Assembly (NCBI RefSeq): GCF_003933745.1 | Contig: NZ_RSEB01000002.1 | Location: 310,001 to 374,000 of the forward strand | Direction of reading: 5' to 3' | Source: Glycomyces terrestris | Lineage (GTDB): Bacteria > Actinomycetota > Actinomycetes > Mycobacteriales > Micromonosporaceae | DNA length: 64,000 bases | Shown here: positions 8,893-27,034 of the stretch, piece by piece | Layout: each line of letters opens with the position of its first letter | Position numbering within the stretch: the first letter of the stretch is position 1 | Notes under the pieces: generated by a model | Seen by the model: only the letters and a program-made list of their open reading frames with translations | The model's database searches: none | What the model was told of the DNA's origin: nothing | Translations under genes and position numbers: made by a program

Positions 8893-10605
8893 ATGATCCC
8901 GGCCGCCCCGCCCGAATCGCTTCCGTCGCTTCGGGTCTGGCAGCGCAAAGCGATGGTGGCGTACCACCGGGGTCAATCGCGGGACTTCCTCGCCGTCGCC
9001 ACCCCGGGCGCCGGCAAGACCACGTTCGCGCTGCGCATCGCCTACGACCTGCTCGCCGACGGCACCGTCGACACGGTCACCGTGGTGTGCCCGACCGAGC
9101 ACCTGAAGGTCCAGTGGTCCGGAGCCGCCGCCCGCTTCGGCATCCAGCTCGACCCGGCCTTCCGCAACGCCGACGTCCACAGTGCCGCCGACTACCACGG
9201 CGTGGTCCTCACCTACGCGCAGATCGGCGCCGACCCGCAGGTGCACCGCCGCCGCACGCTCGCCCGCCGCACCCTCGTCATCCTCGACGAGATCCACCAC
9301 GCCGGCGACGCCCGCTCCTGGGGCGACGGCGTCAAGACCGCCTTCGAGGAGGCCGAGCGGCGACTCGCGCTCACCGGGACCCCGTTCCGCAGCGACGACA
9401 ACCCGATCCCGTTCGTCGAGTACGAGGAGTACGACGACGGCGTCAAGCGCTCGAAGGCCGACGCGGTCTACGGCTACCGTGACGCGCTCGCCGACGGCGT
9501 CGTGCGCCCGGTCATGTTCATGGCCTACTCGGGCCAGGCGAAGTGGCGCTCCAGCGCCGGCGACGAGCTCGCCGTGCGCCTGGGCGAGCCGCTCACCAAG
9601 GACCTCACGAGCCAGGCGTGGCGGACCGCGCTCGACCCCGCGGGGGAGTGGATCAGCCAGGTCATCCGGGCCGCGGACCGGCGCCTGTCGTCGCTGCGCG
9701 CCGCCGGCATCCCGGACGCGGGCGGGCTCATCATCGCGTCGGACCAGAACACGGCCCGCGCGTACGCGGGCATCCTCAAGCGCGTCACCGGCAAGAGCGC
9801 CACGATCGTCCTCTCCGACGACGCCGGCTCCTCCGAGAAGATCGCGAAGTTCGCGGCCTCGGACGACGAGTGGCTGGTGGCCGTCCGCATGGTCTCCGAA
9901 GGCGTCGACATCCCGCGCCTCGCCGTCGGCGTGTACGCCACGAACGCGCACACCCCGCTGTACTTCGCGCAGGCCATCGGCCGCTTCGTGCGGTCGCGGC
10001 GACCGGGGGAGACCGCCTCGGTATTCCTGCCGAGCGTCGTGCCGCTGCTCAGCCTGGCCGAGAACCTGGAGCAGGACCGCGACCACGTCATCAAGCCCAA
10101 GTCCGAGGACCAGGACCCCGAGCTGCTCCTGGAGCAGGCGCAGCGGGTCCTGAACGAGGGCACCGAACTCGGCGGCGAGCGCGAGACCCTGGAGTCGAGC
10201 GCGGAACTCGACGCGGTGATCTTCGACGGCGGCTCCTTCGGCCTGCCGGTGCAGGCCGGGAGCCACGAGGAGCAGGAGTACCTGGGCCTGCCGGGGCTCC
10301 TCACGCCCGAGCAGATCCACCTGCTGCTGCGCAAGCGCCAGCGCGAGCAGATGTCGAAGCAGAAGAGCGGCGCCCGCACCGAGGTCGCCGAGCGCCAGGC
10401 CGCCGAGCCGCCGATGACGAACGCGCAGCGCCGGCTCAAGCTCCGCAAGCAGTTGAACGCGCTCGTGGGGGCCCGCTCATTCGCCACGAACGAGCCGCAC
10501 GGCAAGATCCACGCGACCCTGCGCTCCAAGTGCGGCGGCCCGCCGAGCGCGCAGGCGACCATCGAGCAGCTGGAGGAGCGGATCGCCGAGATCCGCTCCT
10601 GGTGA
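8893..10605 (+). CDS. DEAD/DEAH-box (SF2) helicase
   Basis: 570 residues. Motif I is ATPGAGKTT (36-44), motif II DEIHH near residue 133, motif III LTGTPFR, and motif VI QAIGRFVR, with VSEGVDIPRL before it, so both RecA-like domains are complete. The C-terminal 150 residues are charged and lack a recognised domain. It is related to the UvsW/RAD25-type helicases of actinobacteria; substrate unknown. GGAAGGAG precedes ATG 8893 and TAGAAT at 8853-8858 is a plausible -10. An unusual 16-bp repeat array follows in the 3-prime region. Confidence 0.88.
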   Translation: MIPAAPPESLPSLRVWQRKAMVAYHRGQSRDFLAVATPGAGKTTFALRIAYDLLADGTVDTVTVVCPTEHLKVQWSGAAARFGIQLDPAFRNADVHSAADYHGVVLTYAQIGADPQVHRRRTLARRTLVILDEIHHAGDARSWGDGVKTAFEEAERRLALTGTPFRSDDNPIPFVEYEEYDDGVKRSKADAVYGYRDALADGVVRPVMFMAYSGQAKWRSSAGDELAVRLGEPLTKDLTSQAWRTALDPAGEWISQVIRAADRRLSSLRAAGIPDAGGLIIASDQNTARAYAGILKRVTGKSATIVLSDDAGSSEKIAKFAASDDEWLVAVRMVSEGVDIPRLAVGVYATNAHTPLYFAQAIGRFVRSRRPGETASVFLPSVVPLLSLAENLEQDRDHVIKPKSEDQDPELLLEQAQRVLNEGTELGGERETLESSAELDAVIFDGGSFGLPVQAGSHEEQEYLGLPGLLTPEQIHLLLRKRQREQMSKQKSGARTEVAERQAAEPPMTNAQRRLKLRKQLNALVGARSFATNEPHGKIHATLRSKCGGPPSAQATIEQLEERIAEIRSW

Positions 10606-10661
10606 GCCCGCGGCCGGGGCCCGCGGGGCCGGGCCGATCAGGACGTCAGCGCTTGCTCCGG

Positions 10662-10886
10662 CGACAGCACTTTCCTCAGTGCTAGTGCTTCCAATTTCGA
10701 CAGTGCCTTGCTACGACCGTGCCTCGAAACGACAGCGCCTCGGCACGACAGGGCCCTGATACGACAGCGCCTCTGGACAACAGGGGCCCCGATAAGACCA
10801 TGCCTCGATTCGACCGTGCCGCACCACTGCGGCGACAGTGCCGCCGCACGACGGTTCCGGGGCGCGACGTGCCCCGGAGACGACGC
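10662..10886. repeat. 16-bp tandem repeat array, about 11-12 units
   Basis: Units begin at 10698, 10714, 10730, 10746, 10762, 10778, 10795, 10811, 10833, 10849 and 10865, with a partial one at 10881 and a diverged one at 10662. The consensus is CGACAGNGCCTCGNNA; the first ten bases are best kept. Most steps are exactly 16 bases; one unit is 17 and one 22. Because 16 is not a multiple of three the frame changes each unit, so this is not coding. It sits between the helicase stop and the terminator. All units are in the same orientation. Confidence 0.85.
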
Positions 10887-10916
10887 AGGGCCCGAGCGGA
10901 TCTCCGCTCGGGCCCT
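10887..10916. terminator. Bidirectional terminator between helicase and DUF7455 genes
   Basis: A perfect 13-bp stem with the loop ATCT, flanked by TTGAAGTCTT on the plus side. It separates two convergent transcripts and directly follows the repeat array. Confidence 0.8.
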
Positions 10917-10935
10917 TGAAGTCTTGATATGCGGG

Positions 10936-11175
10936 CTAGTTCTCCGAGGCCATGAGGTCGGTGCCGCGCCACTCGAACTCGGGGTCGGCGGTGAAATCGA
11001 TGGCGATCGGCACGAGCTTCTCGGCGAACTGGTTCGCGTGGTGGCCGCAGAAGACGAGGTCGCCGCCTTCGGCCAGGGTCACGCGAAGCTTTGCCGCGGC
11101 GCTACACCGATCGCAGCGCTCGCCCGCGATCGGACGTTCCTCCGTCTGGGGCGGGGGCGTCAGGGTGGATGTCAT
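10936..11175 (-). CDS. Small zinc-ribbon-like protein (DUF7455 type)
   Basis: 79 residues. CDRC (residues 22-25) and FCGHH form a likely zinc site. The rest is acidic near the C-terminus (DFTADPEFEW). The family is found throughout actinobacteria, often next to sigA as here; its role is unknown. GGAGG lies upstream of ATG 11175 at good spacing. It is separated from sigA by about 330 bases and so probably has its own promoter. Confidence 0.8.
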   Translation of the reverse strand: MTSTLTPPPQTEERPIAGERCDRCSAAAKLRVTLAEGGDLVFCGHHANQFAEKLVPIAIDFTADPEFEWRGTDLMASEN

Positions 11176-11505
11176 ACCAGGTCCTCCGCTGCGTTCGGTC
11201 GCTGTGCTTTCAACACAACGTGGATGTTCTGTCGGCCTGTTGACCGGCTCGTTCCGTTCAACGCCTGCACTGTACTACCCCTTCCCGACATCGACCGACT
11301 GAGACTCGGCTCACTCGCCCTTGACTGTCGGGTAGTTGTTCCACACCGTAGCCCAAGGAACGGCGATCGACAACCCGGCGGGTCTTACGTGTACCCACCC
11401 GTTCGGGTGATACACACCAGGTCCGGGCCGCGCGGGCGGCGCGAGTTCGAATGCCGTGTAAGCCCACAGCGAATTTTCGGCCGCGCCGCGGCGCCTCCGG
11501 GCCCG
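11176..11505. other. Intergenic region between sigA and the DUF7455 gene
   Basis: About 330 bases without a credible gene. An imperfect inverted repeat near 11391-11414 (GTGTA-ccc-ACCCG-TT-CGGGT-ga-TACAC) could end the sigA transcript. The half nearer 11175 is less GC-rich and should hold the DUF7455 promoter, but I could not define a convincing pair of -35 and -10 boxes. Confidence 0.4.
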
Positions 11506-26185: not shown

Positions 26186-27034
26186 ATGACCAACTCTCCC
26201 TACGCCGCCGGGTCCGCGCCGGACCCGAACCGGCCGCCGCAGTCGTTCCAGTACCGGCCGCAGGACCCCGGTGCCGTCCCGTATGGACAGCCGTCGGGCC
26301 CGGTCCTCCCGCCGCCGCCCACCTGGGGCCAGCGCTGGGGCCTCCTGCCCAAGGACGAACGCCCCCGGCAGGTCACGGTGATCCTCCAGACCCTCTGGAT
26401 CCACCTGGCCGCCGTGCTCACCGCGACTCTCCTCGGGCTCACCGGGAGCCTCGCGCTCACTCTCGTCCTCGGCGTGCTCGCCGCGGCCGTGAACCTGGTC
26501 CTCATCTGGGCCGTGGCCCGGGAGCAGCTGGGCCGCTTCGGGTCCGACGACCCGAAGCTCCCGGTCCACATCGGACTCGGGGTGTTGGCGCTCCTCGCGC
26601 TCGTGCGCGTCTTCAACGTCTTCACGGTGGTGCCCGCGATCGTCCAGATCGCCGCCGCACTCCTGGTCTTCGTGCTCATGCTCACCAAGCCCGTGCGCGC
26701 CTGGCTCGCCGAGCGCCCCGGCAACCGGCCCAAGGGGTCCCAGGAGCCGCCCGCCCCCGGCGCCCCGCTCGCGCCGCAGGCGCCCCCGCCGCAGTGGCGC
26801 GACCCGGCCGCGCCGGGCCTCCTGCCCGGGGCCCAGCCGGTTCCGGGCGTGCAGCCCGGCGTGCAGCCCGGGGCCTCGGCGGTTCCGGGCCTCCTGCCCG
26901 GCGTCCAGCCCGGGGCCCAGCCGGTTCCGGGCGTGCAACCCGGCGGCCCGCACGGGTACCGGCCCCCGGCCCCGCCCAGCCCGCCCCCGAGCGGACCGGC
27001 GGCCCATCCGGGCTGGCCGCAGCCGCCGCGCTAG
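26186..27034 (+). CDS. Proline-rich membrane protein
   Basis: 282 residues. A Pro/Gln/Tyr-rich cytoplasmic N-terminus (1-60) precedes three to four membrane helices (about 70-170). The C-terminus is a Pro/Gly/Gln-rich tail in which a 14-residue unit of the VPGxxPGVQPGAxx type is repeated, reflected in a 42-bp DNA repeat at about 26820-26945. I do not recognise a characterised family; proline-rich tails of this sort in actinobacteria often meet signalling or envelope partners (inference). GGAG precedes ATG 26186. Confidence 0.75.
   Translation: MTNSPYAAGSAPDPNRPPQSFQYRPQDPGAVPYGQPSGPVLPPPPTWGQRWGLLPKDERPRQVTVILQTLWIHLAAVLTATLLGLTGSLALTLVLGVLAAAVNLVLIWAVAREQLGRFGSDDPKLPVHIGLGVLALLALVRVFNVFTVVPAIVQIAAALLVFVLMLTKPVRAWLAERPGNRPKGSQEPPAPGAPLAPQAPPPQWRDPAAPGLLPGAQPVPGVQPGVQPGASAVPGLLPGVQPGAQPVPGVQPGGPHGYRPPAPPSPPPSGPAAHPGWPQPPR

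Follow-up and report, generated by a model that had tools for sequence, protein, structure and literature searches.

Bacterial intergenic minisatellites and VNTR, including the mycobacterial MIRU, are built of head-to-tail intergenic units, with a unit length of about 10-100 bp by the definition of a minisatellite, and their presence and unit number are lineage-specific. Each such locus is usually regarded as an accident of its own, unrelated to the others. CRISPR arrays contain near-identical repeats of about 23-47 bp with unique spacers. MacGregor (2015, PMC4679880) describes TAACTGA heptamer direct repeats, in which one short word of 7 bp recurs head to tail at numerous intergenic sites; in the main species most of these sites directly precede start codons, and some of the sets extend over a stop codon. 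In closely related organisms the intergenic regions may be shorter and lack the repeats, and a role as a bound site was proposed. The GTAG- and CGTC-tagged REP elements (Di Nocera 2013, PMC3733652) are palindromic and 20-40 bp long; most of them follow the 3' ends of coding regions, frequently where two genes converge.

The array studied here lies in a Glycomyces genome, in a window (the whole stretch of 64,000 nucleotides that was analysed) which is positions 310001-374000 of contig C8 of a 5.24-Mb assembly. It resembles the minisatellites, VNTR and MIRU in its head-to-tail intergenic units with lineage-specific presence and number. It differs from them in that the unit is only 16 bp, the core is common to unrelated loci and the spacer is variable; its unit number was compared between species. 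The TAACTGA repeats (PMC4679880) appear to be the nearest published analogue, being likewise spread over many intergenic sites and absent from the shorter spacers of some relatives, although a Glycomyces unit has 16 bp, six of them loose, and the arrays prefer 3'-3' junctions. Unlike REP (PMC3733652), the Glycomyces unit is repeated directly and contains no palindrome of its own. REP/BIME was rejected, since no inverted repeat was read inside the unit, the array alone folds with a z of only -1.75, and the unit length does not fit; a CRISPR array was rejected because the unit is 16 bp and the core degenerate. No description of these repeats was noticed in the part of the open-licence PubMed Central literature whose listings were seen.

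The array and its flanking genes

Sequence reading and unit positions revealed 12 head-to-tail units with the consensus CGACAGNGCCTCGNNA at 10698-10896, in the gap between a helicase gene on the plus strand and a convergent DUF7455 gene on the minus strand. The features of the locus are as follows.

8893-10605, plus strand: helicase gene (ResIII/DEAD/SWI2_SNF2-type), the upstream neighbour (ORF; Pfam PF04851, E 9e-15; PF00270, E 2.1e-9; PF18766, E 7.3e-7)
10662-10697, plus strand: degraded partial units, seen by reading only and not reported by TRF
10698-10880, plus strand: eleven recognisable units, mostly of 16 bp (TRF, unit positions, shuffle test)
10852-10882, plus strand: hairpin formed from two adjacent array units (hairpin search, -22.3 kcal/mol; present in the MFE fold too)
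10881-10896, plus strand: twelfth unit, in exact 16-bp register, which is the foot and rising arm of a terminator-like hairpin (positions)
10887-10916, no strand assigned: perfect GC-rich terminator-like hairpin without a T-run (hairpin search and scan)
10936-11175, minus strand: convergent DUF7455 gene, 79 aa (sequence reading; Pfam PF24254, E 3.3e-20)

The units start at 10698, 10714, 10730, 10746, 10762, 10778, 10795, 10811, 10833, 10849, 10865 and 10881, with steps of 16 bases save one of 17 and one of 22. TRF reported a period of 16 (also 32/33) inside 10698-10807, and the lag-16 self-match score was 21.6, against a maximum of 11.4 in 500 dinucleotide shuffles (best over lags 8-32). The array thus has the above-chance head-to-tail units of a minisatellite/VNTR. 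These results confirm the earlier note, made from the letters alone, in its claims of a tandem 16-bp array of 11-12 units and of an almost constant 16-base spacing. Its view that the array is non-coding is also supported, and a coding repeat was rejected here because 16 is not divisible by 3. The array had been said to stop before the terminator, which had to be corrected, because the last unit reaches into the hairpin at 10887-10916. As for the "strong terminator" itself, the stem is present and the T-run absent, so that the stem is what carries the name; a consensus terminator scan returned 0 terminator-like sites. Elsewhere in the window, at 26812-26956, there is a 42-bp tandem repeat (3.5 copies, TRF score 192). 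The reverse complement GCNCNGTCG seems to resemble a tRNA D-arm, presumably by coincidence.

The closest named relatives of the helicase are from Glycomyces species, with 88-96% protein identity. An Arthrobacter-like helicase also occurs in a record titled Vibrio cholerae strain 35D, which is probably a mislabelled or contaminated assembly. The whole interval between the genes folds better than its shuffles (z -3.58), mostly via hairpins; the array alone was equalled by 9 of 200 shuffles. A known RNA family was rejected: Rfam 15 gave nothing over the gathering score at 10500-11300, the best match being sbcD (20.3 vs 40 bits, E 0.14).

Conservation is uneven along the unit. Over the 12 window units, 2 of 48 cells deviate from the column majority in columns 1-4, 20 of 72 in columns 5-10 and 34 of 72 in columns 11-16, which bears out the earlier observation that the first ten bases are better kept than the last six. 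Fisher's test of columns 1-4 against 11-16 gave p 1.3e-7, treating as independent the cells of tandem copies, which are not. A like tendency was seen across 8 arrays, but those other than the window array were partly found by their core; the fair conservation test is therefore the window array alone, and even that array was picked by eye.

Orthologous intervals in related species

The orthologous interval was complete in 20 of the 21 relatives in the genus set and incomplete in one; 19 named and 2 remaining genomes were read. Only the sister species G. sambucus, one of the 20, has an array at this place. It consists of about seven 18-bp units of type CGACACAGGGCCTTGCAA and one of 17, and these units start at the stop codon and reach into the arm of the terminator. 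In the helicase gene tree (support values not considered) G. sambucus is placed as sister to the window species, with G. artemisiae, G. dulcitolivorans and G. albidus outside, and no such array was read by eye at the orthologous interval of these three. The interval is 333 bases long in the window, 187 in G. sambucus, 129 in G. artemisiae, 101 in G. dulcitolivorans and 291 in G. albidus. The unit number therefore differs between species, each represented by one genome: 12 here, about 7 plus 1 in G. sambucus, and 0 in the other 19 relatives. The first window unit can be aligned to one G. sambucus unit with one 2-base gap, a result which none of 2000 shuffles equalled, for a best-looking pair chosen by eye.

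The window array is not conserved, and the proposal of a conserved site tied to the helicase or dtd genes found no support in these relatives. The earlier note had named absence from close relatives together with random decay of the units as the sign of neutral slippage; the absence was observed, but decay was not random across columns. The G. albidus interval, without such units, apparently carries other local duplications of the gene end, judging from its sequence, so the spacer after the helicase may be a duplication hot spot.

All 18 relatives scanned have a hairpin beside the stop codon of the convergent gene. Of the 17 among them that have no array, 11 carry a second one close to the helicase stop and 6 lack it, as does the window. 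This helicase-proximal hairpin suggests that helicase transcripts may normally end upstream of the array interval. In 11 of these 17 relatives at least two terminator-like hairpins follow one another between the stop codons.

Arrays with a common core in the genus

The class core was defined as (A)CGACNGNGC(C/T) and searched in a set of 22 Glycomyces genomes. A two-unit pattern matched 120 times and its reversal 49 times, and 14 of these 49 control matches were in one genome, G016, all on one strand. Genome G016 may hold a 16-bp array of another word, and these matches suggest that words other than the core may form 16-bp arrays too. The three-unit pattern (CGACNGNGC, 16-bp spacing, at most 2 mismatches) was chosen after the two-unit result had been seen. 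It gave 70 matches in 12 of the 22 genomes, against 3 for the reversed pattern, and manual grouping reduced them to 29 places, some of which resemble chance matches. A control word of the same composition, GCACNGNGC, gave 7 matches vs 3 for its own reversal. The window's own genome has three such arrays (contigs C8, C10 and C12). Column 16, left open in the search pattern, was A at 17 of the 29 loci (p 2e-7 with A at 0.16), thus the common word is longer than the searched word. In the window array the core is better kept than the spacer, as the earlier note had it, and it also occurs at unrelated loci of the genus, by the three-unit pattern (70 vs 3) as well as by the looser two-unit one (120 vs 49).

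At the order level, a related pattern matched 25 of 298 genomes; outside Glycomyces, by a manual count of the table, 19 of 290 genomes matched it and 17 of 290 matched the reversed control. Only a single genus, from another family, stood out with 3 of 5 genomes matching, of which 1 also has control matches.

A core-independent survey of 2.46 Mb from six genomes found 43 complex intergenic arrays with periods of 11-24, against 5 in three shuffled copies together. Six had period 16, and the CGAC core was present in five of these, four of them in the window or in stretches chosen for an array. Lag autocorrelation over intergenic regions did not single out 16. A profile scan with spacing 12-20 detected 6 arrays vs 0-2 per control profile (9 controls), another setting 7 vs 0-4, and an earlier stricter setting 4 vs 0. 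The core was absent from the 14 most over-represented intergenic words listed per genome, and was accordingly rejected, among the top words listed, as a common dispersed single-copy intergenic word. In the intergenic regions sampled, every species had over-represented words of its own, for example ATGTCAC/CATGTCA in G013, AGGCGTG in G007, CGGTGTC in G018 and ATCGGTG in G008. Genome G016 contains, at C12:100001-500000, several long intergenic poly-G/poly-C tracts, some beside runs of N.

Flanking sequence was obtained for 22 of the 29 loci, and 20 were scored with genes called by our own script. Twelve arrays were convergent, 3 tandem sense, 3 tandem antisense and 2 divergent. The convergent share exceeds that of intergenic intervals in the 2.46-Mb sample (282 of 1545; p 4e-5), and arrays of other periods had no such bias (7 of 37 convergent). 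The class thus has a REP-like location, 3' of genes, in its 12 convergent and 3 tandem sense members, with the 3 antisense and 2 divergent arrays as misfits. Eight of the 12 convergent arrays are followed by a hairpin, 3 are preceded by one and 1 has none. Three arrays overlap the upstream gene by 7 bases, opening with its final GAC codon and the TGA stop. For one of these three genes the ortholog, by reading, also ends in Asp, so that the seed looks local. In five of five ortholog checks of other class arrays, read by eye (3 with both flanking genes, 2 with one), no array was found; together with the comparison at the window locus, this indicates birth and loss of arrays on a species time-scale.

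The core was also found at other periods. Three units of CGACNGNGC at period 15 gave 324 matches in 22 of 22 genomes, vs 23 in the reversed control, and at period 17 the three-unit core gave 28 vs 5. The period-15 matches are a mix of coding and non-coding places; among the few that were read are one in-frame TVEQS-type protein repeat and one repeat after a stop codon. Pentapeptide-repeat genes were rejected as their identity, since by eye none of the listed places with 0-1 mismatches (G006, G008, G016) overlaps PF13576, a model that could miss short repeats. In 400 kb of G. sambucus (G013:C6:1-400000), arrays of 13-16 bp are frequent in all kinds of intergenic region and have partly related units; those of periods 13 and 14 have related units as well. 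Units such as GAACCGTGCCTTC and AGACCGTGCCGCC were seen in G. sambucus, where such arrays also stand upstream of genes.

Origin of the arrays and rival explanations

With slightly more confidence than doubt, we regard the array as a young, fast-turnover minisatellite, formed by tandem duplication in a 3'-3' spacer and without a function at the level of the locus. The seed would be the segment at the terminator foot, which slippage during replication or unequal exchange, probably with help from the hairpin, would have duplicated in tandem. A similar origin, from the last codon and stop of a gene, would apply to arrays of the CGACTGAGC type. Such arrays would persist in a convergent spacer because it is free of promoters and codons, and at this locus the array would have no required job. 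The recurrent core would come from the look of gene-end seeds in the genus and, as a guess, perhaps also from a sequence preference of the duplication.

The last unit, being foot and arm of the terminator in exact register, was counted for a terminator-flank origin. Also counted for the minisatellite reading were the course of the G. sambucus units into the terminator, the sister position of that species in the helicase tree and the alignment of its unit with the first window unit, the five ortholog checks without an array, the preference for convergent junctions and the three arrays that open with a GAC-TGA gene end. Compared with more distant sequence, terminator feet in the genus are richer in GAACG, ACGAC and GACAG (ranks 30, 37 and 12 of 305 five-letter words), and the core is partly explained by this. 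The strongest enrichment at the feet is that of A-rich words, and CGACC and CGACT are not enriched. The full 10-mer profile was weakly enriched (32 of 668 feet vs 16-21 elsewhere), and 20 permuted profiles gave a mean of 21.75 and a maximum of 39. A generic terminator foot as the sole source of the core was therefore rejected, the five-letter words supporting it partly and the full profile weakly. Further points stand against the minisatellite reading: the conservation within the array is uneven, unlike uniform neutral decay; the common core and its better preservation do not suit a purely neutral story; and in three of the 12 convergent arrays the hairpin is on the opposite side, and in one it is missing.

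Since the feet explain the core only in part, a putative function as a bound site, suggested by the common core and its better preservation, is kept as a serious rival, though on balance an unlikely one. The core ACGACNGNGCY would be the site of a Glycomyces DNA-binding protein and the convergent arrays would give it a platform of several sites (roadblock, insulator or topological barrier), which can disappear from one junction and arise anew at another. It would account for the recurrence of the core at unrelated loci, for the A in the open column 16 at 17 of 29 loci, for the kept core columns in the window and for the enrichment at convergent junctions, which arrays of other periods (7 of 37) do not share. 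It is weakened by the lack of conservation at the orthologs compared, by the 16-bp spacing, which places neighbours on different faces, and by the absence of the core from the top intergenic words listed. One could also picture a system common to the whole genus: ACGACNGNGCY would be amplified again and again where genes converge, and a sequence-specific protein bound to it would separate converging polymerases or supercoiled domains, the arrays shifting between junctions on a species time-scale and the word staying constant. This seems decidedly improbable.

A role in termination is rather improbable, less so than such a system. The units would be copies of the terminator foot or tail and would make one or both of the convergent transcripts terminate more efficiently, perhaps in place of a lost helicase-proximal hairpin. 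The window does lack this hairpin, which 11 of the 17 array-less relatives have together with a DUF7455-proximal one, and it has an array with a two-unit hairpin; in G. sambucus the helicase-proximal hairpin is itself built from array units. However, the other 6 of the 17 lack the helicase-proximal hairpin and have no array in its place, and by itself the array is hardly superior to shuffles in its folding (z -1.75; 9 of 200 as good). The period-15 excess (324 vs 23, 22 of 22 genomes), with its in-frame TVEQS-type repeat and its example after a stop codon, and the related period-13 and -14 units of G. sambucus are what a sequence-specific mutational or mobile process would produce if it multiplied the core anywhere and its products survived in genes only at periods that are multiples of three. 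We consider this very doubtful, as the coding repeats may simply reflect amino acid repeats and period 17 gives only 28 vs 5. Most doubtful of all is that the helicase mRNA would carry the array as a 3'-UTR element (a protein or small-RNA sponge, or a stability element): the array does lie 3' of the helicase on the same strand and the whole interval folds well (z -3.58), but mostly through hairpins, the sbcD match in Rfam is sub-threshold, and the array is not conserved.

Unrelated Glycomyces loci thus have the same core and a preference for convergent junctions, yet the compared loci do not keep their arrays. This raises two separable questions, namely whether a mutational process prefers the core word, or whether a bound site is repeatedly re-created. 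If neutral, as the minisatellite reading has it, the array would show how spacers grow beside terminators; if bound, it would be a new kind of junction element.
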